Assembly (NCBI GenBank): GCA_013373175.1
Contig: JABXII010000006.1
Span: 1 to 64,000, forward strand
Direction of reading: 5' to 3'
Source: Campylobacteraceae bacterium
GTDB lineage: Bacteria; Campylobacterota; Campylobacteria; Campylobacterales; Arcobacteraceae
DNA length: 64,000 nucleotides
Shown here: in pieces, positions 763 through 52,777 of the stretch
Position numbering within the stretch: the first letter of the stretch is position 1
Layout: each line of letters opens with the position of its first letter
The notes under the pieces: model-generated
Told to the model about the DNA's origin: nothing
The model's database searches: none
Seen by the model: only the letters and a program-made list of their open reading frames with translations
Made by a program: the position numbers and the translations under genes

Positions 763-2923
763 CTTGTCTTAACCTTATTGTAAATAATGCCCCATTATTT
801 TTATTTTCTACAGAAATTTTTCCATTCATTTTATCTTCAATAATCACTTTACTCATATACAGCCCTATTCCATGACCATCATCTTTTGTAGTGAAATATG
901 GTTCAAATATATTTTCTAAATTTTTCTCTGAAATTCCTCCAGCATTATCATGAATAGTGATTATTAACTCCTTTGCTTCATTATGCAATTTTATGTCTAT
1001 TTTTCTATTCTTATAATCTTGTCCCAAAAGAGCATCTTTTGCGTTATTGACTATATTTAGAAAAGACTGCATAAATTCATTTTTATATCCTAAAACTTCT
1101 AAATCTGTATTATTATCTATTTCTATTGAAATTTTTATACTATTATATTTCATATTATGATGCACTATAAGAAGCATTGATTTTATTGCATCTTCTATAT
1201 TAAAGATTACTTTTTTATTTGATGGCATAATAAAATTTTGAAAGTCATTTATTGTATCAGTCATATAAGTAACTTGATTCATAATATCTTTTACAAAACT
1301 ATCATCCTCTTTTACATCTTTGCAGCTTTTTGTATAAAATAGTTCTTGAGCAATAGCAGTAATCTCTACTAAAGGAGATTTCCATTGGTGAGCAATAGAT
1401 GAAAAAATCTCGCCTATTTCTGCTAATTTACTTTGTTGAATAACAAATTGTCTATTTTTTTGTTTCTCTAAAGCTATTTCTTTTTCTTTTGTAATATCTG
1501 TAAAGATGGTAACTGAACCTTCGGATTTACTTTTTTCATCATAGAAGTTTTCTCTTTTTACAAGATATATAATTTTTCTCATATTTTTATTTATATAAGA
1601 GAATTCATAATTCTCTTTTTCATTTTGTTTATATTTTTCTAAAACCTCTAAAACTTTTTTTACATTTGTATTATCCACAAAATCAGTAAGTTTTTTTCCA
1701 TAAAGTTCACTGCATTTTATATTTAAAAGTTTACAAAAAGTAGTGTTGGAATCAACAATAACTCCATTTGAATCTTGCCAGAAAATTGGACTTTCTATTG
1801 CATTTAATAAAGTTTCATCAAACTCTATTCTTCTTCTTAAATCTTTTTCTACTTGTTTTCTCATATAAATATTATGGAAAAGTCCAATTATCAAAAATAG
1901 TAAAAAAGGTGAAGTTGTAAATACAAAATTTATAAACCCAGTATGTCTATCATAAAAAGTTTTTCTTTTATTTACTAACTCAATAGGTACTTTTAAAGCA
2001 TCAACAGGGAGAGTAAATTCACCTAACTTAGTTGAATCAAAAATATAGTTTAAATCATCATATATTTCAACTCTAGGTTTAGCCCCATTTAATATTCCTA
2101 AAGCCATTAATCCAGAGCTTTTCCCAAACCTAAATAAATCTACAACTTTTCCACCTGTAGCACCTTTTTCTATAAATAAAGAATCTGTTACAAATATTGG
2201 TATTTTGGCATTCTTTATAAACTTTGCAATCTCTTGATTTTTGTTTAATTCACCATTCTTATTCTTATAAAATCTAATAAATAACGCTGCACTAAACTCC
2301 TCTTTTTTTGAGAATTTTTCTTTCAATTTTTCAAGATTATCTTCTTTTAAATAAACTAATTCAAAAATTCCATCAAACTTCTCTATTAAATCATAAATAA
2401 GAGGTTCAGTATGAGTTGCATTTAAACTAATATCATTGATGATATAAAGTTTTTTCATTATAGGAAAGATTGTCCTTATAATATCAACATTGCCTTTTAA
2501 ATCTCTTTTTTCAATTAAAGCAGAAACCCTGTCAGCAACACCATATCTTGCTGCTTTTTCAGGAGAAAAGTTTTCAATACCAACAGTTAAAATTGGTTCA
2601 TTTGTAAAAAAACTTGAATATATATCTAAAACAAAATCATAAGCAAATCTATCAACGGCAATGATAAGATCATATTTTCTATTTTTTAGTTGTACTTTAT
2701 ATAATTTTTCTAAATTATTATAATACTCTTTTGAAGAGACTCTTTTTGAGTCCATATATAAAACATTTACATCAATATTTGAATGGGGATAAAAAGTTTT
2801 TTCAATTCCATTAATTATGCTATCACTAAATTCATATCCCTTGTGATATGAGTTAATAATCAGAACTGAACTATTTGCAAAAAGAAAAGTTTGGAAAATA
2901 AAAAATAAAAAATACTTCTTCAT
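743..2923 (-). CDS. Sensor histidine kinase with ABC-type periplasmic binding domain
   Basis: This 726-residue kinase starts with a signal-like hydrophobic segment (1-16). A long periplasmic domain (about 18-330) follows, resembling the ABC transporter substrate-binding family (Pfam ABC_sub_bind). Next come one membrane span (about 335-358), a PAS domain (about 375-490), a dimerisation/phospho-acceptor region with AHQWKSPL, and a HATPase domain with the N box (NIVNNAKDAL), DNAGG and the GHGIGLYMSK lid. The binding-protein-like sensor suggests direct recognition of a small solute, probably an organic anion given the neighbouring DASS transporter (inference). It overlaps the response-regulator gene by 20 nt. 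Confidence 0.9.
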   Translation of the reverse strand: MKKYFLFFIFQTFLFANSSVLIINSYHKGYEFSDSIINGIEKTFYPHSNIDVNVLYMDSKRVSSKEYYNNLEKLYKVQLKNRKYDLIIAVDRFAYDFVLDIYSSFFTNEPILTVGIENFSPEKAARYGVADRVSALIEKRDLKGNVDIIRTIFPIMKKLYIINDISLNATHTEPLIYDLIEKFDGIFELVYLKEDNLEKLKEKFSKKEEFSAALFIRFYKNKNGELNKNQEIAKFIKNAKIPIFVTDSLFIEKGATGGKVVDLFRFGKSSGLMALGILNGAKPRVEIYDDLNYIFDSTKLGEFTLPVDALKVPIELVNKRKTFYDRHTGFINFVFTTSPFLLFLIIGLFHNIYMRKQVEKDLRRRIEFDETLLNAIESPIFWQDSNGVIVDSNTTFCKLLNIKCSELYGKKLTDFVDNTNVKKVLEVLEKYKQNEKENYEFSYINKNMRKIIYLVKRENFYDEKSKSEGSVTIFTDITKEKEIALEKQKNRQFVIQQSKLAEIGEIFSSIAHQWKSPLVEITAIAQELFYTKSCKDVKEDDSFVKDIMNQVTYMTDTINDFQNFIMPSNKKVIFNIEDAIKSMLLIVHHNMKYNSIKISIEIDNNTDLEVLGYKNEFMQSFLNIVNNAKDALLGQDYKNRKIDIKLHNEAKELIITIHDNAGGISEKNLENIFEPYFTTKDDGHGIGLYMSKVIIEDKMNGKISVENKNNGALFTIRLRQDENFNS

Positions 2924-2949
2924 AAATTTATTATATTAAAGTTTAAATA

Positions 2950-2977
2950 AAAATGGTGCAAGATTTTGCACCATTTT
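2950..2977. terminator. Terminator after the DASS transporter gene
   Basis: A perfect 12-bp inverted repeat (2950-2961 with 2966-2977) has a 4-nt loop. On the minus strand the stem is followed by a T-rich run. It separates the transporter gene from the sensor kinase gene read in the same direction, so the kinase probably has its own promoter or depends on read-through. Confidence 0.85.
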
Positions 2978-2993
2978 CTTATTCCTCTAAAAC

Positions 2994-4400
2994 TTAAAGG
3001 ATAACAAACCCTAATAATATTAACGCTCCTAAGAATAGTGTTCCAAAGATTGCACCTAATTTCCACCAAGTAGCTTGTGAAATATATCCTGCTCCATACC
3101 AAATAGGTGAAGGCCCAGTTGCGAATGGAGTAATAATACCCATTAGTCCTAAAGAACCTACTAGTAGCATAGCTAGTGGTTGCATCATTTCTGCTGGAAG
3201 TAAGTTCATACCAATTCCTAAGAATAGTGGTAATAAAGCTACAACGTGAGCAGTAACACTTGCAAATAAATAGTGGAAAAGGAAGAATAGTACCATTAAC
3301 ACTATTACTATCATTGTTGGGTCTAGTCCAACTAACCAACTTGAAATAAGTCCTGATGCCCATTTTAAGTATCCAACTTTTTTAAGTCCTGCTGCCATAG
3401 CAACTAAAGTTGAGAACCAAATTAATACGTTAAAGGCACCTTTATTTGTAATAACATCTTCCCAAGTAATTACATTTGATAATACTAGAAGACATAAAAC
3501 TGCAATAGCTGCTGTTGTACTGTTTACTCCAATTTCTTTACCAAAAATCCACATTACTAAAGCAAGTACCCCAAGTCCTAACATTAGAATCTCATTTTTA
3601 GTAATTGAACCCATTTTTCTTAATTCTTCTGCTGCCCATTTAGGAGCTTCAGGAGAATATTTTTGTTCTGGTGGGTAAACTAAATAAGCTAAATATGGTA
3701 CCGCTAAGAATAGTGGAATCATAATAATTGCTAAAGTTGAGAACCAAGTACCCCAATCAATAATAACACCTGCATTTTTTTCAACTAATGAAACCGCAAG
3801 TAAGTTTGGTGCAAGAGCTGTTAAGAACATTGAACTTGTCACGCATGTAGCTGCAATTGCAACCCAAGAGATATAAGAACCAATTTTTCTTGGTTCATTA
3901 TCAGGTAATGAGTTAAACATTTGAGGAATATTAATTGCAATTGGGAAAATAGTTCCTGCACTTCTTGCTGTATTTGAAGGCATGAATGGCGCTAAAACTC
4001 CATCTGCAATTGCTACTGCGTATCCTAAACCTAAAGATGTTTTACCAAGTTTTTTAACTAACAGCAAGGCAATTCTTTTACCAAGACCTGATTTTTTATA
4101 TCCTAAGGCAAACATAAATGCTGCAAAGATTAACCAAATAACACCATTTGAGAAACCACTTAATGCCCAGTTTCTAGCCTCTTTTGCACTTTCTCCAACT
4201 AATCCAAAAGTAGCACAAAATGATACCCCCACTAAACCAATTAGTGCAGGTGGAATAGGTTCTAAAATTAAACCAACAATTACTCCTAAAAATACAGCGA
4301 AGAAATAGTGTGCGTTTACAGCTAAGCCTTCAGGTGTAGGAAGAAGCGCTACAAATACCGCTACCAGAATTGGTATAGCAAGTTTTACATTATTGCTCAT
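2994..4400 (-). CDS. DASS (SLC13-type) sodium-coupled anion/dicarboxylate symporter
   Basis: This 468-residue protein has about 11-12 hydrophobic segments. Two copies of the family's substrate/sodium-binding signature are visible: PSNTARSAG near residue 145, and TPFATGPSPIWYGAGYI near 425. Related proteins move C4-dicarboxylates, citrate or sulfate with sodium; the substrate cannot be told from the sequence. AAAGGA lies just upstream of the ATG. The gene has its own terminator and is followed by a two-component system with a solute-binding sensor, suggesting substrate-responsive control (inference). Confidence 0.9.
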   Translation of the reverse strand: MSNNVKLAIPILVAVFVALLPTPEGLAVNAHYFFAVFLGVIVGLILEPIPPALIGLVGVSFCATFGLVGESAKEARNWALSGFSNGVIWLIFAAFMFALGYKKSGLGKRIALLLVKKLGKTSLGLGYAVAIADGVLAPFMPSNTARSAGTIFPIAINIPQMFNSLPDNEPRKIGSYISWVAIAATCVTSSMFLTALAPNLLAVSLVEKNAGVIIDWGTWFSTLAIIMIPLFLAVPYLAYLVYPPEQKYSPEAPKWAAEELRKMGSITKNEILMLGLGVLALVMWIFGKEIGVNSTTAAIAVLCLLVLSNVITWEDVITNKGAFNVLIWFSTLVAMAAGLKKVGYLKWASGLISSWLVGLDPTMIVIVLMVLFFLFHYLFASVTAHVVALLPLFLGIGMNLLPAEMMQPLAMLLVGSLGLMGIITPFATGPSPIWYGAGYISQATWWKLGAIFGTLFLGALILLGFVIL

Positions 4401-4500
4401 GTCATATCCTTTGTCTCATTCTTTATTTATACTGAAATTTTAAATTAAGTATGTGGCATTAATATGACATTCAGATAACTTGAAAAAATAAATATAAAAA

Positions 4501-4530
4501 AAGGGGAAAAGCCTTTCGCCCTTTCCCCTT
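4501..4530 (-). terminator. Terminator after trxA
   Basis: A 9-bp GC-containing stem (4501-4509 with 4522-4530) is followed on the minus strand by a run of eight T. It lies about 25 nt beyond the thioredoxin stop codon. Confidence 0.85.
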
Positions 4531-4553
4531 AATTTTTGACAATAGTAATTTGT

Positions 4554-4871
4554 TTATACTAAAGAATTAATTTTTTCTGATAATGCTTGTTTTGAAGTAG
4601 CACCAACCATTTGGTCAACAACTTCACCATCTTTGATAAAAATGATTGTTGGAATAGATCTAATTCCATATTTCACAGCTAAATCTTGTTGTTCGTCAGT
4701 ATTTACTTTACAAATATTTGCTTTACCTTCAAACTCTTCAGCTAATTCTTCAATAACTGGAGCAATCATTCTACAAGGTCCACACCATGGAGCCCAAAAA
4801 TCTACTAATGAAACACCTGAGTTAACAGTTGACTCAAAATTCTCTGGAGTTAAATCTATATACTTACCCAT
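4554..4871 (-). CDS. trxA: Thioredoxin
   Basis: This is a complete 105-residue thioredoxin with the WCGPC redox centre (Cys30 and Cys33), the buried DFWAPW strand before it, and the cis-proline motif SIPT near residue 74. It reduces cytoplasmic disulfides using electrons from thioredoxin reductase. No signal peptide is present. An AAGGAA ribosome-binding site precedes the ATG, and a strong terminator follows. It is divergent from alaS and monocistronic. Confidence 0.97.
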   Translation of the reverse strand: MGKYIDLTPENFESTVNSGVSLVDFWAPWCGPCRMIAPVIEELAEEFEGKANICKVNTDEQQDLAVKYGIRSIPTIIFIKDGEVVDQMVGATSKQALSEKINSLV

Positions 4872-4978
4872 TTTTAATTCCTTTTTAGTCTTAATATTAG
4901 TAAATTATACAGTCAAAAACTTTAAATAAACTTGGCTAAATAAACTTTACGTTAGAATAAAACCTAAATTTATTATGG

Positions 4979-7555
4979 ATGAATTATATGGATATTAGAA
5001 AAGAGTATTTAGAGTTTTTTAAAAGTAAAGGACATGAAGTTGTTTCTTCAATGCCTTTAGTACCAGATGACCCAACATTAATGTTTACAAATGCTGGAAT
5101 GGTACAATTTAAGGATATTTTTACAGGTGCAGTTCCAAAACCAAGTAACCCAACTGCAACTTCTTGTCAACTTTGTGTAAGAGCTGGTGGAAAACACAAC
5201 GACTTAGAAAACGTTGGTTACACTGCAAGACATCATACACTATTTGAGATGTTAGGTAATTTCTCATTTGGTGATTATTTCAAAGAAGATGCAATTGCTT
5301 ATGCATGGGAATTTGTTACAAAAAACCTTGCTTTACCTGTAGACAAATTATGGGTAACTATTCATGATAGTGATGATGAGGCTTTTGATATTTGGGCTAA
5401 GCACATTGATTCATCAAGAATCAAAAGATTTGGAGATAAAGACAATTTCTGGTCTATGGGAGATACAGGACCTTGTGGACCATGTTCAGAAATTTTTTAT
5501 GACCAAGGATCTGAGCACTTCAATACAGAAGAAGATTATTTAGGTGGAGAAGGTGATAGATTCTTAGAAATCTGGAATTTAGTATTTATGCAATATGAGC
5601 AAACTAAAAATGCAGATGGAACTATTACAAGAAGTGAACTTCCAAAACCATCTATTGATACAGGAATGGGACTTGAAAGAGTTATTGCAATTAAAGAAGG
5701 TGTTTATAATAACTTTGATTCTTCAAACTTCCAACCTATAATTAAAAAATTAGAAGAATTAGCAAATAAAAAAGTTGATGATTCAACAATTGGTTCATTT
5801 AGAGTTATTGCTGACCACTTAAGAGCAAACTCATTTATGCTTTCTCAAGGGATTCTTTTTGGAAATGAAGGAAGACCTTATGTAAATAGAAGAATTATGA
5901 GAAGAGCTGTAAGACATGGTTATTTACTAGGATTTAGAAAACCATTTATGGCAAAACTATATGATACTTTATGTGATATTATGGGTTCTCACTATTCAGA
6001 ACTTGTTGAACAAAAAGATTATGTAAAAGAACAATTAACTTTAGAAGAAGAAAGATTCTTTAAAACTATTGAATCAGGTATGACTTTATTTAATGAAGAA
6101 TTAGCAAATACTAAAGAGAAGTTTTCTGGAGAAATTGCATTTAAACTATATGATGAAAAAGGTTTCCCATTAGATTTAACGCAAGATATGCTAAGAGATA
6201 AAGACCTTGATGTTGATGTTGAAAAGTTCGATGAACTAATGGCAGAACAAAAGGCAAAAGCAAAAGCTTCATGGAAAGGAAGTGGAGATGCTGCAACTGA
6301 TGGAGACTTTAAAACACTTATTGAAAAATATGGTCAAAATGAGTTTGTAGGATATGACAATACAGCATATAAAAGTACAATTGTTGCTATTTTAGATGAA
6401 AACTTTAAAGAAGTTTCATCTTTACAAAAAGGAAGTACTGGTTGGGTTATGCTTGACAAAACTCCTTTTTATGCAACATCTGGTGGACAAAATGGTGATA
6501 TTGGAGCATTAGAAGATAATGAACATATTGCTATTGTAGAAGATACTTCTAAATTCCATGGTTTAAACCTTTCAAAAGTTAAAGTAGAAAACTCTGATTT
6601 AACAATTGGTGAAAAAGTGGATGCTGTAGTTGTAGATAGAGGAGAAGTTGCGAAACACCACTCTGCTACACACTTACTTCAAAGTGCTTTAAAAATGGTT
6701 CTTGGAGAAACTGTATCACAAGCTGGTTCTTTAAATGATGCTACAAGATTAAGATTTGACTTTACATACCCAAAAGCTATGACAGAAAATCAAATTGAAG
6801 AAGTTGAAGATTTAGTAAACTCAATGATTGCAAGAGGCCTTGCAGGAACAGTTGAAGAGCTTCCTATTGAGCAAGCTAAAGAAAAAGGTGCTATTGCTAT
6901 GTTTGGTGAAAAATATGGTGATATGGTAAGAGTTGTTAGCTTTGGAGATGTATCTGTAGAGTTCTGTGGTGGAACACATGTAAAAGATGCACATGACATT
7001 GGTTCTTTTTATATTACAAAAGAATCAGGAGTTAGTGCAGGTGTTAGAAGAATAGAAGCTGTTTGTGGACTTTCAGCTATTAAATATGCAAAAAATATTA
7101 TTGCAGAAATGAATAAAGTACAAGCAGAAGTTAAAAACAATGATGCAATAGCAGGTATTAAAAAACTTAAAGAGCAAGTTAAAGATCTTAAAAAAGAGCT
7201 TGAAGATGCACATAACTCTATTCAAACACCTATTTTAGAAGAAACAATTGGTGATACAAAAGTAGTAGTTGATATTGTTGAAAATGGTGATATCAAAAAA
7301 TTAGTTGATGATTATAAAAATGGAAATGAAAAAGTAGCAATCTTACTTATTCAACCTAAAGGTGAAAAAGTAATGTTAGTTGCAGGAAGCAAAAATACTA
7401 ATATAAAAGCAGGTGACTGGATTAAAGCAGTTGCACCTATTGTAGGTGGTGGTGGTGGTGGAAGACCAGACTTCGCACAAGCAGGTGGTAAAGATGTTTC
7501 TAAAGTAAATGAAGCAAAAGAAGCTGCACTAAACTTTGCAAAGGAAAACTTATAA
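4979..7555 (+). CDS. alaS: Alanine-tRNA ligase
   Basis: This full-length (858 residues) class II synthetase charges tRNA-Ala. It has the catalytic core (about 1-240, with [13 protein letters not shown] and GMGLERV), the tRNA-recognition region, the editing domain with HHSATHLLQ and the zinc-binding CGGTHV, and the C-terminal DHHA1 domain with a glycine run (about 820-850). The first ATG (4979) has no good ribosome-binding site. The family usually begins at [11 protein letters not shown], so the ATG at 4988 is an equally likely start. The run of GGT codons at 7446-7463 encodes the glycine motif and is not a phase-variable tract. Confidence 0.98.
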
Positions 7556-42308: not shown

Positions 42309-45092
42309 TTATTCTACTACTTTTGTAAACTCTTCATACAAATTATTTGTAAGAGGAGTTTCAAGTTTTAATTCTAAGTCTATAGGTTTATTGTTTTTAT
42401 AAGAGTGGGTATTTGCTAATCCTAAATAAATAAAACCTTGAACTTTTCTATCCACATGGGAAAATTTTCTTACAAAGATATGAAGCTTAACTGCGTGTTT
42501 AATATTTTCAATAAGTCTTTTACCATCACCTTTATCAGTACTCATCGAAGGTTTACTTGAATATGTAAAAAGCTCTTTTGAAAGAAAAGCATTTTCATAT
42601 TTTGCACCCTTTGTAAACTTATCTTTTTCTATAGTTATAAAAAGGAAAAAATCATCTTTATATTTTAAAAAGCCACTTCCTCTAAAAGAACTGTGTATCT
42701 TATTAAAATTACAAAGTTGTGCAATATTTAACATATTATACTTTTCATAAAGTTTTAAAAATGGTAAACCATAATTTTTTATCCCAAACTCTTTTTCGTA
42801 CTTAATTAAAGCATAGTTTAAAGAGTCTAATAAAAGGGTTCTTTTAAACTTATTAGTAAGTAAAGAACTAAACTCTTTTGTTTTAAAAAGTTTATCTCTT
42901 TGTAAATTTACTAATTTTAAAAATCTTTGTTTTTGCGCAGAGTCAAAAAATTGTTCATCTAAAAATCTAAAACTATGAATTACTGTCTCTTCACGAACCT
43001 CTTGCAAATATTTCTTTAAATGTGCAACTGCTTTTTTTATAGAAACTTCTTCATTAAAAATTAAATACTTTAAAATAGCAAACTCATGAACTCTTTTAAT
43101 TGGCATCAAACCTTGAATAAATCTAAGGGCTTTTATAAAGTTTTCATCTTCACAAACTTTTTTATATGCAATATCTTTTTCGACTTTGCAAATAAACTCT
43201 TCATAGGATTTTGCATAGGAGATAAAGTCTAAAACATTTACATACTCATCATAATGTATATAATCACTAAGCTTTGGAATAGTCTTTAGATTCAAAGAAG
43301 ATTTAAACTCTAAGTACTGTTCTTTTAAATACTTCAAACTATTAAAGTTTTCACTATCAATTTGTTCTAAAACTCTTTTTTTAGAGATTTCATCCATGAT
43401 AATATGTGCATTAGGAAAGTTTGAAAAATTATTGTTTAGTGATAATTTTATACTATCTTTATCAAATCTTTTTTTACCAACTAAAGCTAAAGCTATAAGA
43501 TACGCTCTATTATGATTTCCAATAAAATCAAGTACTGTTAGAAACTCTTTATTAGAATTTTTTCTTAAACCTCTCCCTAGTTGTTGTACAAAAACAATGG
43601 AAGAGTTCGTAGGTCTTAGCATTAAAACTGTATTAACATTTGGGATATCAACACCTTCATTAAAAATATCTACAGTAAAAATAACTTCAAGTTCATTTGT
43701 ATTACTTTGTAGTTTTTTAATAGAGTTTTCTCTTCTTATAATAGAGTCTTCACTTGTAAGAGAAGTTGCTTTAATTCCTCTTTTATTAAACTCTTCACTC
43801 ATAAAGTTTGCATGTTCTTTAGAAGCACAAAAACCTAAGACTCTTCTTTTATTTCCACTAAAACCATAGAAGTTCATCTTTTCAACAATAAAATCTACTC
43901 TTTTATTTATCATCAAAAACTTTGAAAGCTTTTTGATATTTGTTAAATCAAGGTTTTCATAATCAAGCTCTTTAATATCTTCTATTCCAAAATAGTGAAA
44001 AGAGCTTACTAAACACTTTTCTAAAGCTTCATTTAGTGTTATTTCACAGGCTAAATTATCATCAAAAAAATCAAAGATAGAAACCTCGTCAGTTCTATTT
44101 GCAGTTGCTGTAAGTCCAAGTAAAAACTTTGGTTCAAAATAGTTTTTTACACACTCATAACTTTTACTTGCTATATGATGAGCTTCATCTACTACTATAT
44201 AATCAAACTCATTTTTCTCAAATTTTTCATAATAATTACTCAAAGTTTGTATTGTTGCAAATATAAAATCACAATGTGTATCTTTTTTATTTCCAGTGAA
44301 AAAGCCCATTGTCTTGTCTTTGATTACTGCTTCAAAACTTTTTCTAGCACTAATTAAAATATCTTCTCTATGGACAATAAATAAAACTCTTTTAGCAGCA
44401 AACTGTTTTATATCAAAGACACTTAAAAAAGTTTTTCCTATTCCTGTTGAAGCTATTGCAAGGGCTTTATTTTCACCATTGTTTCTTAGAAAATCTAATC
44501 TTTGTAAAGCTTGTTGTTGCATAAGGTTTAATCTAAACTCTTCTTTTTTAAAGCTTTGTATCTTTTCTTGTTTATTTTTAAAACTTTTGTACTCTTCTAA
44601 AAAGTTCTCATCAACAAAAATTGAATCATCCCAAAGTTTATTAAAATCAGAAAAAAGCTCTTTTATAAAAAGGTCATCTTTTTTTAAAACAGTTTTTATA
44701 TTCCACTCTATATTTGATTTAAAAGCACTTGCAGTAAGATTTGAAGAACCTATTAAAACTTTATATTCATTTTCAAACTCAAAGATATAAGCCTTGGGAT
44801 GAAAGCCTATTTGATTATTTGCACTATCAAATATTTTAAGTTCTATGTTTTCAAACTCTTTTATTTTTTCTAAGGCTTTTTCATCTGTAAAATTAAGGTA
44901 TGTAGAACTTAAGATTTTACCTTTTATTCCTCTTTGTTCACATTTTTTTAGGTTGTTAAGTATTAATTGAAGTCCTGAATAATTTATAAATGTCACATTA
45001 AAATAAAAAGATTTACAAGAATCTAATAAACATACAAATTGGTTATAAAAATTACTATCAGCAGAGTTTGTTATTAATTTAAGATTTTTCAA
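42309..45092 (-). CDS. PLD-nuclease/DEAD-helicase fusion with DUF3427-type C-terminus
   Basis: This 927-residue protein has an N-terminal phospholipase-D-type domain (about 1-150, with the single HxK motif GFHPKAYIF and SSNLTASAF), then a superfamily 2 helicase: STGIGKTFL (Walker A), VDEAHH, TATANRTD and QQLGRGLRK (motif VI). The C-terminal third is of DUF3427 type. Such proteins resemble restriction or DNA-repair helicase-nucleases. The start is TTG, with AAAAGGAAA about 10 nt upstream, just after the DUF2237 gene. Whether it is a defence gene or a repair gene cannot be told here. Confidence 0.88.
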   Translation of the reverse strand: MKNLKLITNSADSNFYNQFVCLLDSCKSFYFNVTFINYSGLQLILNNLKKCEQRGIKGKILSSTYLNFTDEKALEKIKEFENIELKIFDSANNQIGFHPKAYIFEFENEYKVLIGSSNLTASAFKSNIEWNIKTVLKKDDLFIKELFSDFNKLWDDSIFVDENFLEEYKSFKNKQEKIQSFKKEEFRLNLMQQQALQRLDFLRNNGENKALAIASTGIGKTFLSVFDIKQFAAKRVLFIVHREDILISARKSFEAVIKDKTMGFFTGNKKDTHCDFIFATIQTLSNYYEKFEKNEFDYIVVDEAHHIASKSYECVKNYFEPKFLLGLTATANRTDEVSIFDFFDDNLACEITLNEALEKCLVSSFHYFGIEDIKELDYENLDLTNIKKLSKFLMINKRVDFIVEKMNFYGFSGNKRRVLGFCASKEHANFMSEEFNKRGIKATSLTSEDSIIRRENSIKKLQSNTNELEVIFTVDIFNEGVDIPNVNTVLMLRPTNSSIVFVQQLGRGLRKNSNKEFLTVLDFIGNHNRAYLIALALVGKKRFDKDSIKLSLNNNFSNFPNAHIIMDEISKKRVLEQIDSENFNSLKYLKEQYLEFKSSLNLKTIPKLSDYIHYDEYVNVLDFISYAKSYEEFICKVEKDIAYKKVCEDENFIKALRFIQGLMPIKRVHEFAILKYLIFNEEVSIKKAVAHLKKYLQEVREETVIHSFRFLDEQFFDSAQKQRFLKLVNLQRDKLFKTKEFSSLLTNKFKRTLLLDSLNYALIKYEKEFGIKNYGLPFLKLYEKYNMLNIAQLCNFNKIHSSFRGSGFLKYKDDFFLFITIEKDKFTKGAKYENAFLSKELFTYSSKPSMSTDKGDGKRLIENIKHAVKLHIFVRKFSHVDRKVQGFIYLGLANTHSYKNNKPIDLELKLETPLTNNLYEEFTKVVE

Positions 45093-45561: not shown

Positions 45562-46413
45562 TTAGGCTTTTATAATAGGTGCAAAGGCTTTAGTACTTAC
45601 TCTTACATCTTGACCTACTACTAAATCTTTTGCTTCATTTGAGGTGATTGTTACTTCAACTAACTGTTGACCAATTGCAACTATTGCAATATTTATCACA
45701 TCTACTTTAATTATATCAAGAAGCTTTCCCTCAAAGGAAAACTTTGCACTACCACTTGTTTTTAATAATACACTTTTTGCATTGCCATCATCTATTATTT
45801 TTCCATCTTTTAAAACAATTACTCTATTACTTAGTTTATAAATTTCACTAGGGTCATGACTTACTAAAATAGTAGTAGTTTCAAACTCTTTATGTAGTTG
45901 TAATATTTCATCTTGAAGCTTTAATCTCATGTTAGGGTCTAAAGCTGATAAAGGTTCATCCATTAAAAGAAGTTTTGGTTTATTCATTAAAGCTCTACAA
46001 AGGCTTACTCGTTGTTTTTGTCCACCACTTAAACTATTTGGTAATCTATTTTTTAAAGCTACTAACTCTGTAATTTCTAAAAGGTGGTTTGCTAACTCTT
46101 TATCTTTATTTACATAAAATAGATTCTCTAAAACTGTCATATTAGGAAAAAGTGCATAGTCTTGAAAAACAAAACCTATTTTTCTTTTCTGTACTGGTAA
46201 AAACTCTTTTTCATCTTGCCAAATCTCATTACCTACTTTTATGATTCCATCTGCTTTTTCAAGTCCTGCTAAACTTCTAAGAAGAGTTGTTTTACCACTT
46301 CCACTAAGCCCAGTTAAAGCAATAAAATCCTTATCATTTATACTTAAATCTATATCAAAGTTCATAACTCCTTGTGAGCCATGAAGTTCTTTTTTTATAC
46401 CTATTTCTATCAT
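45562..46413 (-). CDS. modC: Molybdate ABC transporter ATP-binding protein
   Basis: This 283-residue ATPase has Walker A GLSGSGKTTLLRSLAGL, Q-loop, signature LSGGQKQRVSLCRAL, Walker B LLLMDEP and the H-loop VSHDPSEIY. A single C-terminal TOBE domain (about 215-280) follows. It is shorter than E. coli ModC (352), which has two TOBE lobes. It powers molybdate uptake through ModB. Its start overlaps modB by 4 nt. Confidence 0.94.
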   Translation of the reverse strand: MIEIGIKKELHGSQGVMNFDIDLSINDKDFIALTGLSGSGKTTLLRSLAGLEKADGIIKVGNEIWQDEKEFLPVQKRKIGFVFQDYALFPNMTVLENLFYVNKDKELANHLLEITELVALKNRLPNSLSGGQKQRVSLCRALMNKPKLLLMDEPLSALDPNMRLKLQDEILQLHKEFETTTILVSHDPSEIYKLSNRVIVLKDGKIIDDGNAKSVLLKTSGSAKFSFEGKLLDIIKVDVINIAIVAIGQQLVEVTITSNEAKDLVVGQDVRVSTKAFAPIIKA

Positions 46414-47111
46414 CTATGAAGTCCTGTGAACTTTTTATTATATTTTTGATTAAAGATATACACACAAAGTAAAACTATAAAACTAATTAACAACATAATC
46501 AAACTATATATGTGAGCTGAATTATAATCAATAATTTCCACAAACTCATATATAGCAACTGCTGCAACTTTTGTTTCACCAGGAATACTTCCACCAACCA
46601 TTAATACAACTCCAAATTCACCAACAGTATGAGCAAAGGTTACTATAATTGCTGTTAAAACTGCTGGTTTTATATTTGGTAAGGCAACTTTTAATAAAGT
46701 CTCAAATTTACTTTTTCCAGCTATTAGACTTGCTTCAAGCATGTTTTTATTGATACTTTCAAAACCACTTTGCAAAGGTTGAACCATAAAAGGTAAGGAA
46801 TAAAAACAACTAGCTATTACAACACCTGTAAAAGTGAAAACTAATTTTATTCCAAATACTTCATCAAAGAATGCTCCAATAGGAGAGTTTATAGATAAAG
46901 AAAAAAGAATATAAAAACCTATTACAGAAGGTGGCAATACAATTGGTAAAGCAGTTATGGCTTCTATAAAAGGTTTTATTTTAGAGTTTGTTTGAGATAA
47001 GTACCAAGCAAGAGGAAGTGCAATAATAAATAAAATCAAAGTTGTTACAAAAGCTAATTTAAAAGATAAAAAAAGCGGTGCAAAATCCAAACTACTAATA
47101 GTATCAATCAT
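46410..47111 (-). CDS. modB: Molybdate ABC transporter permease
   Basis: About 233 residues from the chosen start (MIDTISSLDFAPLFLSFK), with five to six membrane spans and the EAA-loop segment EASLIAGKSKFETLLKVALPNIKPA. The ATG at 47111 is preferred over 47168, because the longer form adds 19 residues unlike the family. The chosen start overlaps the preceding Mop-domain gene by 8 nt and overlaps modC by 4 nt, so translation is coupled. Confidence 0.94.
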   Translation of the reverse strand: MIDTISSLDFAPLFLSFKLAFVTTLILFIIALPLAWYLSQTNSKIKPFIEAITALPIVLPPSVIGFYILFSLSINSPIGAFFDEVFGIKLVFTFTGVVIASCFYSLPFMVQPLQSGFESINKNMLEASLIAGKSKFETLLKVALPNIKPAVLTAIIVTFAHTVGEFGVVLMVGGSIPGETKVAAVAIYEFVEIIDYNSAHIYSLIMLLISFIVLLCVYIFNQKYNKKFTGLHR

Positions 47112-47505
47112 TACACACATCCAATATAGATAAAGCACTTGATTTAAAAAATAGTGTAACTTTATCATCTTCTTGTAAATTCATTTTTTCTAAAGACTCA
47201 GTTGTAACTATTGTTTCTATAAAAGTTTCATCTACGATGCAAATTATATTACTCAATAGTTTTCCTTTTTCTATATTTTTTATATTTCCATGAAGTTTAT
47301 TTGAAGCACTTATTTGCCCTTGAAAATCTTTTGCGATATTGATATTTGTAGGTTTTACACTCAGTATCACTTTTTTATTTTCTTTTATATCCTCACTTAA
47401 ATCAAGACTTATCATTGTTAATTCATTTGATTTAAAAGTAAAAGTAACTAGGTTTAAACTGTCACTATTTTTTATTTTGCAAACTGTTGCTTCAAACTTA
47501 TTCAT
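47104..47505 (-). CDS. TOBE/Mop-domain molybdate-binding protein
   Basis: This 133-residue protein is made of two TOBE-like halves (about 5-65 and 70-130). The second is clear: SASNKLHGNIKNIEKGKLLSN and a VTTESLEKMNL segment. Mop-type domains bind molybdate or tungstate oxyanions. It sits between modA and modB with 4-nt and 8-nt overlaps, a place held by a similar gene in Campylobacter (from memory). A storage, buffering or sensing role is possible. It could also supply the second TOBE lobe lacking in the short ModC (inference). Confidence 0.82.
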   Translation of the reverse strand: MNKFEATVCKIKNSDSLNLVTFTFKSNELTMISLDLSEDIKENKKVILSVKPTNINIAKDFQGQISASNKLHGNIKNIEKGKLLSNIICIVDETFIETIVTTESLEKMNLQEDDKVTLFFKSSALSILDVCND

Positions 47506-48248
47506 GGTACTAAATATCCAAATCTTTTAAAAATCTTTTTTGCTTTAGGACTTAAAATAAAATCATAAAAAACTTTTACTTCTTTATTATCTTTTGCATT
47601 TTTTAAGATTATTATACCTTGATTAATTGGTGTGTATAGTTTTGGGTCAACATCAATCCAATTAACTCCTTCTTTGTACTTTTTCATTTTATCACTATAT
47701 AAAGATGACTTTGCGATAAATCCAAGTTGGGCAGCTGTAATTGAGAATGATACTGTTTGAGAAATTGACTCACCATATACAAACTTTTTTTCAATACTAT
47801 CATACAATTTTGCATTTTTTAAAGCTTCTACAGTAGCCTTTCCATATGGTGCAGTTTTAGGATTGGCAATAGCTATTTTTTCAATATTCTTATCTTTTAC
47901 TATCTCTATACCTTTTGAAAAATCTTGTTTTTTTGAACTTAGTATTGCAAGACTTCCTTGAGCATAAACTAAAGGTTTTGTTAAACTTAATCCATCACTT
48001 TCTAAAGTTTTAGGATACTTCATATTTGCAGACATAAATATTTGATATGGAGCTGCATTTTTAATTTGTGCAGTAAGTTTTCCACTACTTCCTAAAGTAA
48101 CTAATACTTTAGTATCTGGGTTTTCCTTGTTAAACTCTTTTATTAAATCATTAATTGCATAACTAACATTTGCAGCAACTGCAATATTTATTGTACTTGC
48201 AACTAAACTTGATGAAACTAAAAACACTAATACTAATAACTTTTTCAT
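47502..48248 (-). CDS. modA: Molybdate-binding periplasmic protein
   Basis: This 248-residue solute-binding protein has a signal peptide (about 1-17) and ModA motifs INIAVAANVSYAINDL, GSSGKLTAQIKNAAPYQIFMSAN, and ANPKTAPYGKATVEAL. It hands molybdate (or tungstate) to ModBC. It lies 2 nt after modE and overlaps the Mop-domain gene by 4 nt. Confidence 0.95.
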   Translation of the reverse strand: MKKLLVLVFLVSSSLVASTINIAVAANVSYAINDLIKEFNKENPDTKVLVTLGSSGKLTAQIKNAAPYQIFMSANMKYPKTLESDGLSLTKPLVYAQGSLAILSSKKQDFSKGIEIVKDKNIEKIAIANPKTAPYGKATVEALKNAKLYDSIEKKFVYGESISQTVSFSITAAQLGFIAKSSLYSDKMKKYKEGVNWIDVDPKLYTPINQGIIILKNAKDNKEVKVFYDFILSPKAKKIFKRFGYLVP

Positions 48249-48249
48249 T

Positions 48250-49032
48250 TTATTTTCCTATCATAATATCATTTGCTTTTATATAAGCATATACTTTTTT
48301 GCCCTCTTCTAGGCCTAACTGTTTTACAGCTCCTGTTGTAACAATGGATGAAATACTTTGTTCTTTTCCAATGTTTATATTAACCTCACTATTAGTTTTA
48401 TCTTTTATAATAGAACTAATTGTTCCTTCAATTTTGTTTCTAGCACTAATTGCTATATCCCCTGAAGTTGATAGTAAAACATTAATAGACTTGAAAATTG
48501 CAATTACTTCGCTATTCTTTTTTATCTGTAAACTTTGCATTGCATCATTAGAGATATTTGCAAAAAGTTCATGTCCACTTTTTGGAACAATAACTATATT
48601 TGCATTCACATCATTAGATACTATTTTGTCAACTCTGCCTACAATCTGATTTCTGGCACTAATTTGCATGGCTAATCTTCCTATCGTTTTTAATGTTCCT
48701 GTATCTATATCTGTTGCTTCTTTTAATCTATTTAAAAAACTTTTTTGTTCTTCTTTTAAGAAAAGATATGTTTTTAATAGGTTTTCTCCATAAGAAGTTA
48801 AAGAAGTTCCACCTCCACCTTTTCCACCTTTTTCAGTTATTACAACTGCTTGAGAAGAGAGGTTATTCATGGCATCAACAGCTTCCCATGCTTTTTTATA
48901 ACTCATTGGTACTTCTTTTGCAGCTTTACTTATTGAACCACATTTTTGGATTGCAAAAAGTAATTCAATTCTTTTTTCTAATAAAAAAGGTTGGTCTAAC
49001 AATTCTAAAGTTAAGTTTGATGATATTTCCAA
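48250..49032 (-). CDS. modE: Molybdate-responsive transcriptional regulator ModE
   Basis: About 260 residues from the chosen start. An N-terminal winged helix (about 10-110) includes GSISKAAKEVPMSYKKAWEAVDAMNNLS and GGKGGGGTSLTSYGE, as in E. coli ModE. Two TOBE/Mop domains follow (about 120-185 and 190-255, each with SARNQI/SARNKI). It represses mod genes when molybdate is bound. The TTG at 49032 (EISSNLTLELL) is preferred because AAAAGGAG lies 5 nt upstream. The ATG at 49047 has no binding site and overlaps the palindromic operator. Confidence 0.93.
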   Translation of the reverse strand: MEISSNLTLELLDQPFLLEKRIELLFAIQKCGSISKAAKEVPMSYKKAWEAVDAMNNLSSQAVVITEKGGKGGGGTSLTSYGENLLKTYLFLKEEQKSFLNRLKEATDIDTGTLKTIGRLAMQISARNQIVGRVDKIVSNDVNANIVIVPKSGHELFANISNDAMQSLQIKKNSEVIAIFKSINVLLSTSGDIAISARNKIEGTISSIIKDKTNSEVNINIGKEQSISSIVTTGAVKQLGLEEGKKVYAYIKANDIMIGK

Positions 49033-49046
49033 GATACTCCTTTTCA

Positions 49047-49066
49047 TTGTATACTTTAGTATACAA
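49047..49066. promoter_or_regulatory. Putative ModE operator
   Basis: A perfect 8-bp inverted repeat TTGTATAC/GTATACAA with a 4-nt centre (49047-49066) lies 15 bp before the proposed modE start. A third half-site TTGTATAC, extended to CGTTGTATAC, is at 49088-49097; it forms a 10-bp inverted repeat with 49059-49068. The position fits autoregulation by ModE. Confidence 0.68.
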
Positions 49067-49140
49067 CGTTTTATAAAAGAATATTAGCGTTGTATACCTT
49101 AATACATATTGAAGAAATAAATTTTATTTTTTTTGATTTT

Positions 49141-49163
49141 GTATAGCCTGAAAAAGGCTATAC
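49141..49163. repeat. Inverted repeat after fbp
   Basis: A perfect 8-bp repeat (49141-49148 with 49156-49163) lies 1 nt past the fbp stop codon. It is followed by A rather than T on the minus strand, so it is not a standard terminator, though it may stop transcripts or protect the 3' end. Confidence 0.5.
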
Positions 49164-49164
49164 T

Positions 49165-50007
49165 TTAGTTAGATAAAGCGTCTTCTACTTTTTGTACTTC
49201 AGAAGATGAACCAAAATAAATAGGTGTTTTATCATGTAAGTCAATATTTGTCATATCTAAAATACGACCTTTTGAGTTTATTGCTCTTCCCCCAGCTTGC
49301 TCAATAATATATGAGATAGGGAAAGCTTCAAATAGTACTTCTAGTTTTCCATCTGGGAAAGATTTTGTTGCAGGAGAAGAGTATAAGCCTCCTCTTTTAA
49401 ATAAAATCTGGTGTGTATCTAAAGCTAGAGAATCAGAATATCTTAATCTATAACCTTCATTAAAAAAGCTTTCAATTAACTCTTTATGTTCCTTTGTCCA
49501 CTCACTAGCAATTCCACCTGTAGAATTGATTTTTCCTTTTTTCTCTAATGTTAAAGGGTCTTGTTCTATAAACTCCCCATCTTCATAGGAGAAATAAATT
49601 ACACCTTCAGATTTTGAAGCAAATACTAATTGGAATGTTGGTCCATAAGTAATATACATAGCTGCTTTTAAGTGAAATGCATCCATTTGATGTTCATAGA
49701 TTCCAAAAATAGTTCCTAATGAAAAATCTACATCTAATAAATCTACATTATCAATCGCTACATAAGAGATCTTATATTTTCCATTTTCATTTATTGTTGT
49801 GTACTCTTTATTATCTTTTCCAATAAATCCATGAACTGATTTTACTCTTTTGAATTCTCTTTCAATAATCTTAGAACAGTAATCATGAACACTATCATGC
49901 ACTTGTTGGTCATTTAGTCCGCTTGATAAAAATTTATCACAATCAACAAATACGTTTTTTTCTATATCTTCTGCAATATTTGTAATGGCATTAAAAACTG
50001 CAATCAT
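49165..50007 (-). CDS. fbp: Class I fructose-1,6-bisphosphatase homologue lacking metal-site motifs
   Basis: This 280-residue protein keeps the C-terminal substrate half of class I FBPases: STGG, EGYRLRYSDSLALDTHQILFKRGG-type residues near 190-215, FPDGKLEVLFEAFP and AGGRA. The family's metal and phosphate loop DPLDGSS is replaced by DNVDLLD (residues 86-92), a three-residue deletion plus changes. The upstream SEE motif that also binds metal is absent, with FIGKDNKE in its place. Asp86, Asp89 and the glutamate in LLFEAFP remain. It is probably altered or inactive as a phosphatase and may act as a binding protein. It is the last gene of a DUF502/AI-2E/pfkA/fbp operon. Confidence 0.85.
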   Translation of the reverse strand: MIAVFNAITNIAEDIEKNVFVDCDKFLSSGLNDQQVHDSVHDYCSKIIEREFKRVKSVHGFIGKDNKEYTTINENGKYKISYVAIDNVDLLDVDFSLGTIFGIYEHQMDAFHLKAAMYITYGPTFQLVFASKSEGVIYFSYEDGEFIEQDPLTLEKKGKINSTGGIASEWTKEHKELIESFFNEGYRLRYSDSLALDTHQILFKRGGLYSSPATKSFPDGKLEVLFEAFPISYIIEQAGGRAINSKGRILDMTNIDLHDKTPIYFGSSSEVQKVEDALSN

Positions 50008-50078
50008 AAAATTTAGCCTCTTTTATTTTTATAAATTAGTATATATAATATCAAGTAATTGGTTAAAGCCCTATAAGT

Positions 50079-51056
50079 CTAGTTCACTAATCTCTTTGCT
50101 AGATTAAGTAGCTCTTCTTTTATTTCGTACTTTGAAGAGTTTACATAATCAATAGATACAAACTCAAACTCACCTTTATTATAAACAATTACACTACTTG
50201 TAAAATCTTCTTTAAAAATTTCATCAATTGCAAAACTGACAAATTCTGAGGCCATAAGCCTATCATATACTGTTGGGTTTCCACCCCTTTGAATGTGACC
50301 TAAAATAGTTGCTCTTGTTTCAATACCTACATCTTCTTCAAGCCATCTTACAAGCTCATTTGTTGTTGTACATTTGTTTTTAGAGCAACCCTCTGCAACA
50401 ACACAAACTATATATTTTCTTCCATTTTTAAGCTCTTCTTTTAATCTTTTACCTATTACATCTAAATCATAATCAAGCTCTGGAATCATACAAACCTCAG
50501 CTCCACAAGTGATAGCTGAAACAAGAGCTAAATATCCACAATCTCTTCCCATTGTTTCAATTACACAAGCTCTTTTAAATGAAGCAGAAGTATCTCTAAT
50601 TGCATCAGTTGCTTCTCTTATAATATTTAAAGCAGTATCCACACCTAAGCAATATTCTGTTCCAAAAATATCATTATCAATAGTTGCAGGTATTCCTACA
50701 AACTTTATTCCAAAGTCATCATAGAATTGATTTAAGGCTCTAAAAGAGCCATCTCCACCTAAAATAATAAGTTTATCAATTCCATGTTTTTGTAAGTTTT
50801 CAAAGGCTTGTTTTCTATACTCGTATTCAAAAAATCTTTTTGATCTTGACGACCTTATTTTTGTTCCACCTTCGTGCATAATTCCTGCAACGTCTTCAAA
50901 AGTAGCTTCTTTGATACTTCCATCAATTAAACCTTCTAAACCATCAAAAATCAAAAAAGGTTTTAGCTTTTTGCTAAGACAATAATCTACAAACTGCTTA
51001 ATAGCAGGGTTCATTCCTGCACAGTCTCCACCTGAAGTTAATATTGCAATTGCCAT
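50079..51056 (-). CDS. pfkA: 6-phosphofructokinase, ATP-type
   Basis: This 325-residue enzyme has TSGGDCAGMN, GGDGS (residues 100-104; the Gly that marks ATP-dependent rather than pyrophosphate-dependent forms), the catalytic PATIDND, MGRDCGYLAL, AEG and LGHIQRGG. It phosphorylates fructose 6-phosphate to the 1,6-bisphosphate. Most Campylobacter lack this gene (established knowledge). Its partner downstream is the divergent FBPase homologue. It lies 1 nt after the AI-2E-family gene, so it is cotranscribed. Confidence 0.95.
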   Translation of the reverse strand: MAIAILTSGGDCAGMNPAIKQFVDYCLSKKLKPFLIFDGLEGLIDGSIKEATFEDVAGIMHEGGTKIRSSRSKRFFEYEYRKQAFENLQKHGIDKLIILGGDGSFRALNQFYDDFGIKFVGIPATIDNDIFGTEYCLGVDTALNIIREATDAIRDTSASFKRACVIETMGRDCGYLALVSAITCGAEVCMIPELDYDLDVIGKRLKEELKNGRKYIVCVVAEGCSKNKCTTTNELVRWLEEDVGIETRATILGHIQRGGNPTVYDRLMASEFVSFAIDEIFKEDFTSSVIVYNKGEFEFVSIDYVNSSKYEIKEELLNLAKRLVN

Positions 51057-51057
51057 T

Positions 51058-52095
51058 TTAAACCTTTCTTTCTCTTTTGTGAGAAATATCAGACATTAAA
51101 ACTGCTATCCATTGAGTACTTGTATTTGTACTAAATGCTATTTTTAATGTCATTGTAATTGGAACAGCTAAGAACATTCCAACTATTCCTAAAACCCATC
51201 CCCAAAGAATAAGAGAGAAGAAGATAACTAAAGGAGATAAGCCTAACTCTTTTCCCATAAGTTTTGGTTCAATAATATTACTAATTGAAATATTGATAAC
51301 AACATAAAAAACAATTAATGCAATTGTTGTATTTAAATCTAAACTAACAAGGGATAAAAGCACTGCTGGAATTGCTGCTATAATAGAACCAACAACTGGA
51401 ACAAAATTAAATAACATAGCTATTACACCCCAAAGTACGGGATAATCTACTTGGAAAAATATAAGACAAATAGCAATAATAAAACCTGTTAGAAAACTTG
51501 TTGTAGTTTTTACTAAAAAATATTTTTGAATATTATGAGAAAACTCTTTAAAATGTTCTAACTCTTTTCTTTTTTGTTTAAAAATTACTTTTAACTTCTT
51601 TTCAAAGGATTTGGACTCTGCAAGAATAAAGGCAATTCCTATCACAATAAGTAAAAATTTAGAAAGGAAAGTTCCTATACTTCCAATAATATTTGTTGTA
51701 AAACCAAAAAATGAGCTAAAGTTTAATGCATCTAAAATCATATTTTTATCAACTACTACACCATAACTTTCCCCTAAAGCTATTATTTGAACAACTAAAC
51801 CTTGTAATTGCTTTTCATATTGAGGAAGATTTAAAATAAAATTCTTTAGTGAAATATTTACTATATATGCTAAAAGCAAAGATAGAAGTACAAATATTGA
51901 GATAACTAAAACATATGAGATAGCTCTTGGGATATGTTTTCTTTCTAAATATCTTAAAAGTGTAGAGAAAATCGAAGAAATAAATATTGCTAAAAAGAGT
52001 ATAACTACGATTTCACTAGCAACTTTTAAACCTGCAATTATTACTACTAATGTAGCTAAATAAAAAAAATAGTGTCTAATATTCACCGAATCCAA
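51058..52095 (-). CDS. AI-2E family transporter (PerM/YdiK type)
   Basis: This 345-residue membrane protein has about eight hydrophobic segments and the family's C-terminal motif region NFVPVVGSIIAAIPAVLLSL, then ISNIIEPKLMGKELGLSPLVIF. Members include the autoinducer-2 exporter TqsA and some sodium/proton antiporters; the substrate here cannot be told. It lies 1 nt after the DUF502 gene. Confidence 0.9.
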   Translation of the reverse strand: MDSVNIRHYFFYLATLVVIIAGLKVASEIVVILFLAIFISSIFSTLLRYLERKHIPRAISYVLVISIFVLLSLLLAYIVNISLKNFILNLPQYEKQLQGLVVQIIALGESYGVVVDKNMILDALNFSSFFGFTTNIIGSIGTFLSKFLLIVIGIAFILAESKSFEKKLKVIFKQKRKELEHFKEFSHNIQKYFLVKTTTSFLTGFIIAICLIFFQVDYPVLWGVIAMLFNFVPVVGSIIAAIPAVLLSLVSLDLNTTIALIVFYVVINISISNIIEPKLMGKELGLSPLVIFFSLILWGWVLGIVGMFLAVPITMTLKIAFSTNTSTQWIAVLMSDISHKRERKV

Positions 52096-52096
52096 A

Positions 52097-52777
52097 CTAT
52101 AGTTCCTTTTGTTTATTTTCTTCTAAAATTTCAGATAATGATTTAAACTCTTCTATATTTTTAGGTTCAATATTTACTATATCAGCTAAAGACTTAACAC
52201 CCATTGATAAAAGATATTGTAAATTTGAATCAAAAGTTGCCTCTTCTATTACTTTGATTTTATCTTTATGTACTTCAAACATAAAACCTCCATTTGGAAT
52301 AGGAGTCATAGATAAAACAACTGTATAATGATCTTTTACTACAGACTCTTTAGTTGAATACATCAATCCAATATTATAATCATCCTTTGAAAATCCAGAG
52401 ATTAAAACTACTAAAACTTTCTTCTCTCCAGATTTTGAAGTATTGAAAATATTTACTAACTCTTTTATTGTAGAAAAACCTGGTATCTTAGAATATACTC
52501 TTTGAATAATATCAACTAATTTTGTTTCTGCAAATACACCCATAATGTATGCAACTAAAACCATGATTACTACACCAAAGATTGTCCATAAAAAAGGGAA
52601 TTTTTCTGGCTCAAACCCTAATAATTCAAACATACTTCCAGTTAATTCATTTATTTTTTCATAAATCCAAATTAAGATTATTGTAATTGCTGCAATGGGA
52701 GCTAACCAAAAAAGTCCCTTTAATATAACTCTAACTATATGGTCTTTTCCATGGGCGAAATATTTCTTTAACATCAT
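52097..52777 (-). CDS. DUF502 family membrane protein
   Basis: This 226-residue protein has two N-terminal membrane spans (about 17-37 and 50-75) and a soluble C-terminal domain with IPGFSTIKELVNIF, VVLSMTPIPNGGFMFEV and DNLQYLLSMGVKS-like segments, typical of DUF502. The function is unknown. AAGGAA precedes the ATG pair. It is the first gene of the operon that includes pfkA and fbp. Confidence 0.88.
   Translation of the reverse strand: MMLKKYFAHGKDHIVRVILKGLFWLAPIAAITIILIWIYEKINELTGSMFELLGFEPEKFPFLWTIFGVVIMVLVAYIMGVFAETKLVDIIQRVYSKIPGFSTIKELVNIFNTSKSGEKKVLVVLISGFSKDDYNIGLMYSTKESVVKDHYTVVLSMTPIPNGGFMFEVHKDKIKVIEEATFDSNLQYLLSMGVKSLADIVNIEPKNIEEFKSLSEILEENKQKEL

Follow-up and report, generated by a model that had tools for sequence, protein, structure and literature searches.

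A conserved fructose-bisphosphatase pseudoenzyme that accompanies phosphofructokinase in Arcobacteraceae and its candidate role in regulating the opposing step

Results

The pFBP locus

The stretch of Campylobacteraceae bacterium DNA analyzed here (64,000 nucleotides; the window) encodes a homologue of class I fructose-bisphosphatase (FBPase), hereafter pFBP, 71 bp downstream of the gene for a 6-phosphofructokinase (PFK), the arrangement that the initial annotation had described (Table 1). The protein matches both Pfam domains of the family above their curated cut-offs, FBPase_C (PF18913) with 115.2 bits (cut-off 27) and the N-terminal domain FBPase (PF00316) with 39.2 bits (cut-off 34.8). Its score of 269.5 bits against the NCBIfam equivalog NF006784 falls below the cut-off of 395, compared with 459.1 for the canonical copy described below.

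PFK itself lies 1 bp from the AI-2E family transporter gene, with the DUF502 gene alongside, and these genes possibly share a transcript. A promoter/terminator scan placed no terminator-like site in the PFK-pFBP gap on the strand of the two genes; it returned 33 promoter-like sites in this AT-rich DNA against 23.9 in shuffles (sd 5.1), and one terminator-like site against 1.1 expected. The stem-loop past pFBP, the molybdate-type transport cluster with its inverted repeat, which is possibly an operator, and the restriction-type gene beyond it are listed in Table 1.

Table 1. Coordinates of features in the window and at related loci. Residues before an arrow follow mammalian FBPase numbering and those after it pFBP numbering.
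Feature	Sequence	Position	Strand	Description
PLD/ResIII helicase/DUF3427 gene	window	42309-45092	-	927-aa protein; strong PADLOC match to type IV restriction enzyme models
Molybdate-type transport cluster	window	45562-49047	-	ABC ATPase, permease, TOBE protein, binding protein, HTH/TOBE (ModE-like) regulator
Inverted repeat	window	49043-49113		26 nt, GTATACTTTAGTATAC / GTATACCTTAATAC, upstream of the ModE-like gene
Stem-loop	window	49141-49163		9-bp perfect stem, 5-nt loop, directly past the pFBP stop codon; T-rich tail on + strand only
pFBP	window	49165-50007	-	280 aa; class I FBPase fold, catalytic ligands lost
6-phosphate/R276/E280 region	window	49327-49377	-	Y264→S211; K274→K221 (variable across family); R276→E223; E280→E227 (kept)
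R243 equivalent	window	49441-49443	-	R189
DPLDGSS motif	window	49741-49761	-	V83-A-I-D86-N-V-D89, in register; D86 (D121 equivalent) retained, no D118 or GSS
SEE motif	window	49813-49821	-	S-E97-E98→G63-K64-D65
Catalytic loop	window	49885-49911	-	TGDxQxKLD (D68, D74)→DQQVHDSVH; most relaxed stretch of pFBP
N-terminal helix	window	49948-50004	-	residues 2-20; far better conserved than in the same genomes' canonical FBPases
PFK	window	50079-51056	-	ATP-dependent 6-phosphofructokinase; intact catalytic residues
AI-2E family transporter and DUF502 genes	window	51058-52777	-	tightly packed upstream of PFK
Canonical FBPase	G000:C3	4295-5140
ARMT1-like (DUF89) damage-control phosphatase	L073 (g2)	5438-7141		directly after pFBP
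ARMT1-like (DUF89) damage-control phosphatase	L074 (g2)	1917-3616		directly after pFBP
ARMT1-like (DUF89) damage-control phosphatase	L075 (g2)	3640-5346		directly after pFBP
Degenerate ~250-aa FBPase-like gene	L108 (G076)	421-1170
Degenerate ~250-aa FBPase-like gene	L110 (G095)	424-1179

The FBPase active site is dismantled throughout the family

We compared residues in a MAFFT alignment of 27 pFBP orthologues, 35 canonical Campylobacterota FBPases and E. coli Fbp, using mammalian numbering and the residue roles established for FBPases. The metal-ligand set of the enzyme (EC 3.1.3.11), E97/E98/D118/D121/E280, is reduced in pFBPs to D121 (27/27) and E280 (26/27, Asp in one): E97 is Lys in 24 of the 27 and Gln or Arg in the other three, E98 is Asp in 17 and Glu in one, and D118 is Val, Ile, Leu or Asn in all. 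In the catalytic loop, D74 is replaced in every orthologue and the D68 position holds Asp or Glu in just 8 of 27. The 1-phosphate ligands are missing as well, with G122-S123-S124 replaced in 27/27 by Asn/Ser, Val/Ile/Leu/Pro/Met and Asp/Glu, and R276 by Glu, Asp, Asn or Phe (27/27). From the 6-phosphate set, Y264 has become Ser, Asn or Thr (kept 0/27) and K274 is kept in 15 and lost in 12, leaving as invariant (27/27) R243, an Arg with which each FBPase subunit reaches into its neighbor's active site; the ligands of the protein's own subunit are lost. Canonical FBPases of the lineage, in contrast, keep all these ligands in 35/35, except D68 (33/35, Glu in two) and R243 (32/35).

The absence of the SEE and DPLDGSS motifs reported in the initial annotation is therefore real, being fixed in 27 orthologues and so neither an error nor chance. 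The three-residue deletion reported with it disappears in ungapped matches by MAFFT, by phmmer against rabbit FBPase and by a 17-sequence profile against E. coli FBPase, and the DNVDLLD taken as the counterpart of DPLDGSS is in fact residues 86-92, beginning at the kept D121 equivalent. The substrate half said to be kept survives as a C-terminal fold but not in its ligands. The 1-phosphate loop, R276 and Y264 are gone, as is K274 in 12 of the 27, so that the pocket no longer resembles a fructose-bisphosphate site, and substrate sensing as it had been put forward is not supported. pFBP pockets have also gained conserved acids at D/E89, D/N192 and, mostly as Glu or Asp, position 223; an acidic pocket with Lys at E97 would argue against fructose-bisphosphate binding there. 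These losses bear equally on the idea of a sensor for fructose-bisphosphate or some other metabolite that acts on its own, without contact to FBPase or PFK: R243 is kept, K274 persists in part of the family and the FBPase fold could in principle hold a ligand between its domains, but with both phosphate sites dismantled, K274 variable and an output domain absent from pFBP, we consider such a sensor very unlikely.

A single metal could be bound by the D121 and E280 equivalents together with the acid that has replaced S124, and pFBP might accordingly be a phosphatase or other enzyme that uses a new one-metal site (D86, D/E89 and E227) on another sugar phosphate. The invariance of the D121 equivalent, the near-invariance of E280 and the replacement of S124 by Asp or Glu in 27/27 would fit such a site, as would the position of the gene among glycogen and glycolysis enzymes and, in one genus, beside an ARMT1-like phosphatase. 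We nevertheless regard altered catalysis as quite unlikely, given that the general-base network and remaining metal ligands are gone, that the change of R276 to an acid in most members and the loss of Y264 make the pocket acidic and poor for phosphates, and that no cluster of His or Cys has become conserved in the 27 orthologues. As an FBPase, pFBP is very probably dead.

A canonical FBPase is encoded elsewhere in the genome

The genome, which is 99.98% complete, holds one further FBPase-family gene above the Pfam cut-off (Table 1), and its SEE, TGDTQLKLD and DPLDGSS motifs are all intact. A third, weak match is a 244-aa protein whose IDPLDGS motif suggests that it is probably of the inositol-monophosphatase type. 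Searches for GlpX (PF03320) and FBPase_3 (PF01950), in which positive controls worked, found neither in any of nine genomes (0/9), so that in place of the GlpX or class V enzyme envisaged as a replacement the cell has the canonical class I gene as its one true FBPase. The presence of this copy rules out pFBP as the cell's sole FBPase with shifted ligands. It also undercuts, as an argument standing alone, the proposal that loss of catalysis avoids wasting ATP opposite PFK.

Fold and selection are retained, and constraint has shifted

An AlphaFold2 model built from the window protein and 16 orthologues (pLDDT 90.7, pTM 0.90) has the class I FBPase fold: its top Foldseek match is porcine FBPase (E 5.9e-25, TM 0.87), and VIA-align superposes it on human muscle FBPase with Z 33.6 over 273 residues at 2.0 Å, spanning residues 1-280. 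Among close relatives, dN/dS is 0.06-0.17 for pFBP, much as for canonical FBPase (0.05-0.09) and PFK (0.05-0.13), and pFBP is under purifying selection. With catalytic residues lost and fold and selection kept, pFBP has the marks of a pseudoenzyme; the earlier proposal to this effect finds good support in the replacement of metal and phosphate ligands, the intact fold, purifying selection and the separate canonical FBPase. The lost active site might also be expected of a decaying duplicate carried along in an operon, an explanation that is hardly credible and already contradicted by these dN/dS values, by the absence of internal stop codons, by columns invariant over three families and by the retention of pFBP after the surrounding operon was lost.

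Per-residue entropies in the 17 aligned genomes that carry both paralogues indicate where selection now acts. The catalytic loop (residues 31-46) shows the largest relaxation, +1.5 bit, whereas the N-terminal helix has gained constraint, with a mean entropy difference (pFBP minus canonical) of -0.65 bit, a value this low arising once in 280 circular shifts and once in 20,000 permutations; residues 121-130 have gained constraint too. In pFBP, constraint has thus left the catalytic loop for the N-terminal helix. The N-terminal helices of FBPases sit at the allosteric and inter-dimer region.

pFBP forms its own clade and follows PFK

The 27 pFBP sequences form a single clade (support 100/100) apart from all canonical FBPases, and across 399 genomes of the order profile scores separate the two cleanly, at least 473 bits versus at most 281. 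Among 121 genomes, pFBP is present in 24, comprising 14 of the 16 members of the genus, nine others in the family and one in another family; named relatives that bear it include a Halarcobacter, other Arcobacteraceae, Arcobacter and Sulfurovum-like metagenome-assembled genomes. PFK is found in 24/24 of these pFBP genomes versus 39/97 of the others (Fisher 1.2e-8, not corrected for relatedness), and co-occurrence is 26/26 over all pFBP genomes checked, G346 having been left out of the PFK search. Two genomes, G049 and G066, have PFK and no detected pFBP; both assemblies are fragmented.

Gene order varies around this association. In most members of the genus pFBP closes a glycogen/glycolysis operon, which in G009 and relatives runs GAPDH, PFK, a nucleotidyltransferase/phosphomutase fusion, GH57, GalT-like, GlgA, alpha-glucan phosphorylase, phosphoglucomutase, DUF4912, GH57 branching enzyme and, last, pFBP. 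The order is PFK, pFBP and ARMT1-like phosphatase in g2 genomes and phosphoglucomutase, pFBP in g12; an ARMT1-like gene adjoins pFBP in G016 also. Sulfurovum-like contigs carry pFBP near PFK and a glycogen-phosphorylase gene, with glgA in one of the two, and PFK adjoins pFBP on L125 and on L126, the contig of G411. Seven pFBP genomes from two lineages (G000, G004, G012 and G015; G035, G047 and G057) lack both GlgA and GlgP, and all seven retain PFK and pFBP as neighbors; G005 and G007 have lost the glycogen genes, PFK and pFBP together. Because of these seven genomes and the two complete losses, pFBP can be said to track PFK and not glycogen, and a function tied to glycogen as its core link is ruled out. 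The connection to PFK drawn in the initial annotation thus gains support from strict co-occurrence and from adjacency that recurs even where the intervening glycogen genes are lost.

Such evidence could also mean that pFBP binds PFK directly and regulates it in place of a classical small-molecule effector site. Besides co-occurrence, repeated adjacency and the joint losses in G005 and G007, this main alternative, in essence the PFK regulator of the initial annotation, draws on the lack of the E. coli effector arginines in these PFKs (R21K, R25D/E, R54 aromatic or His) and on a mirror-tree partial correlation between pFBP and PFK, given FBP, of 0.37-0.46. The effector arginines are just as absent from PFKs of genomes without pFBP, however; in G035, G047 and G057 pFBP adjoins a divergent PFK outside the main pFBP-associated clade, which would require a swapped partner; and a regulatory pair of FBPase and PFK is not known, nor was one found. 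We therefore judge direct binding to PFK unlikely. Mirror-tree correlations gave no stable preference for FBPase over PFK as partner, and since canonical FBPase is nearly universal across the order, its presence cannot discriminate between them.

An alignment of 50 Campylobacterota PFKs (L163/L034-L063, L165-L184) places the effector site in a wider context. The tested catalytic residues are kept, D103 in all but two, and the E. coli effector-site arginines are gone in the 50 (R54 being mostly aromatic or His), so allosteric control of Campylobacterota PFKs, judged from these residues, is probably different. Loss of the effector site as a trait specific to pFBP genomes is ruled out by its equal loss elsewhere.

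Discussion

FBPase and PFK are textbook opposing enzymes under small-effector control. In this marine Arcobacter-type bacterium and many of its relatives, pFBP is probably a control protein and not an enzyme, and we think it rather likely that what it regulates is the PFK/FBPase step; such a regulator would be useful because a normal FBPase in the same genome opposes PFK. We envisage that a class I FBPase was duplicated and that one copy lost catalysis and was retained as a regulatory subunit of this step, working through protein contact. Whether this lineage-wide pseudo-FBPase sets the direction of carbon flow by contact, be it in mixed FBPase oligomers or by binding PFK, in a group whose PFK is missing the effector arginines of E. 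coli PfkA, we put at about an even chance.

Mixed oligomers are the simplest route because FBPases are oligomeric and the cell also has the canonical sister. Duplicated homomers commonly end up as heteromers, although about half of E. coli paralogous pairs stay homomeric (PMC7480870). pFBP would join canonical FBPase in mixed dimers or tetramers, in which it would still donate R243 but bring a dead active site, and would thereby damp or retune FBPase while PFK runs forward, limiting the futile cycle. The invariant R243 may instead be structural. Regulation through mixed oligomers with canonical FBPase is, taken by itself, a tentative proposal that we place rather below even; the overall account, in which a pseudo-FBPase controls the PFK/FBPase step through protein contact, likeliest in such oligomers, falls only slightly short of it. 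If correct, this would amount to protein-based control of the step in bacteria, exerted by a conserved dead FBPase whose presence and absence follow those of PFK, and the PFK/pFBP gene pair offers a directly testable system of two or three soluble proteins amenable to standard coupled assays.

Compared with canonical class I FBPases (Pfam FBPase/FBPase_C; NF006784), pFBP shares the fold over residues 1-280, the length of the Campylobacterota enzymes and the R243, D121 and E280 equivalents; it differs in its replaced metal, base and phosphate ligands, its tie to PFK and its separate clade, and on the residues aligned here would not be classed as an FBPase enzyme. Also comparable are the degenerate FBPase paralogues of G076 and G095 (Table 1), a second FBPase-like family, which likewise lack the FBPase ligands and group with pFBP in the tree, a placement that is unsure given their long branches. 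Unlike pFBP, they are more degenerate, have part of the C-terminal domain deleted and lie among non-glycolytic neighbors; the PFK of these genomes is placed next to the pFBP-associated PFK clade. A search of open-licence papers found no FBPase pseudoenzyme. A parallel from another enzyme is plant PDX1.2, a noncatalytic paralogue that acts on its sister enzymes (PMC6829848). As with PDX1.2, a dead paralogue is held by selection beside a live oligomeric sister, whereas the gene for pFBP is linked to that of the opposing PFK, and the partner and effect of pFBP are putative. Noncatalytic paralogues that act on sister enzymes are a known kind, of which pFBP would be an FBPase instance.
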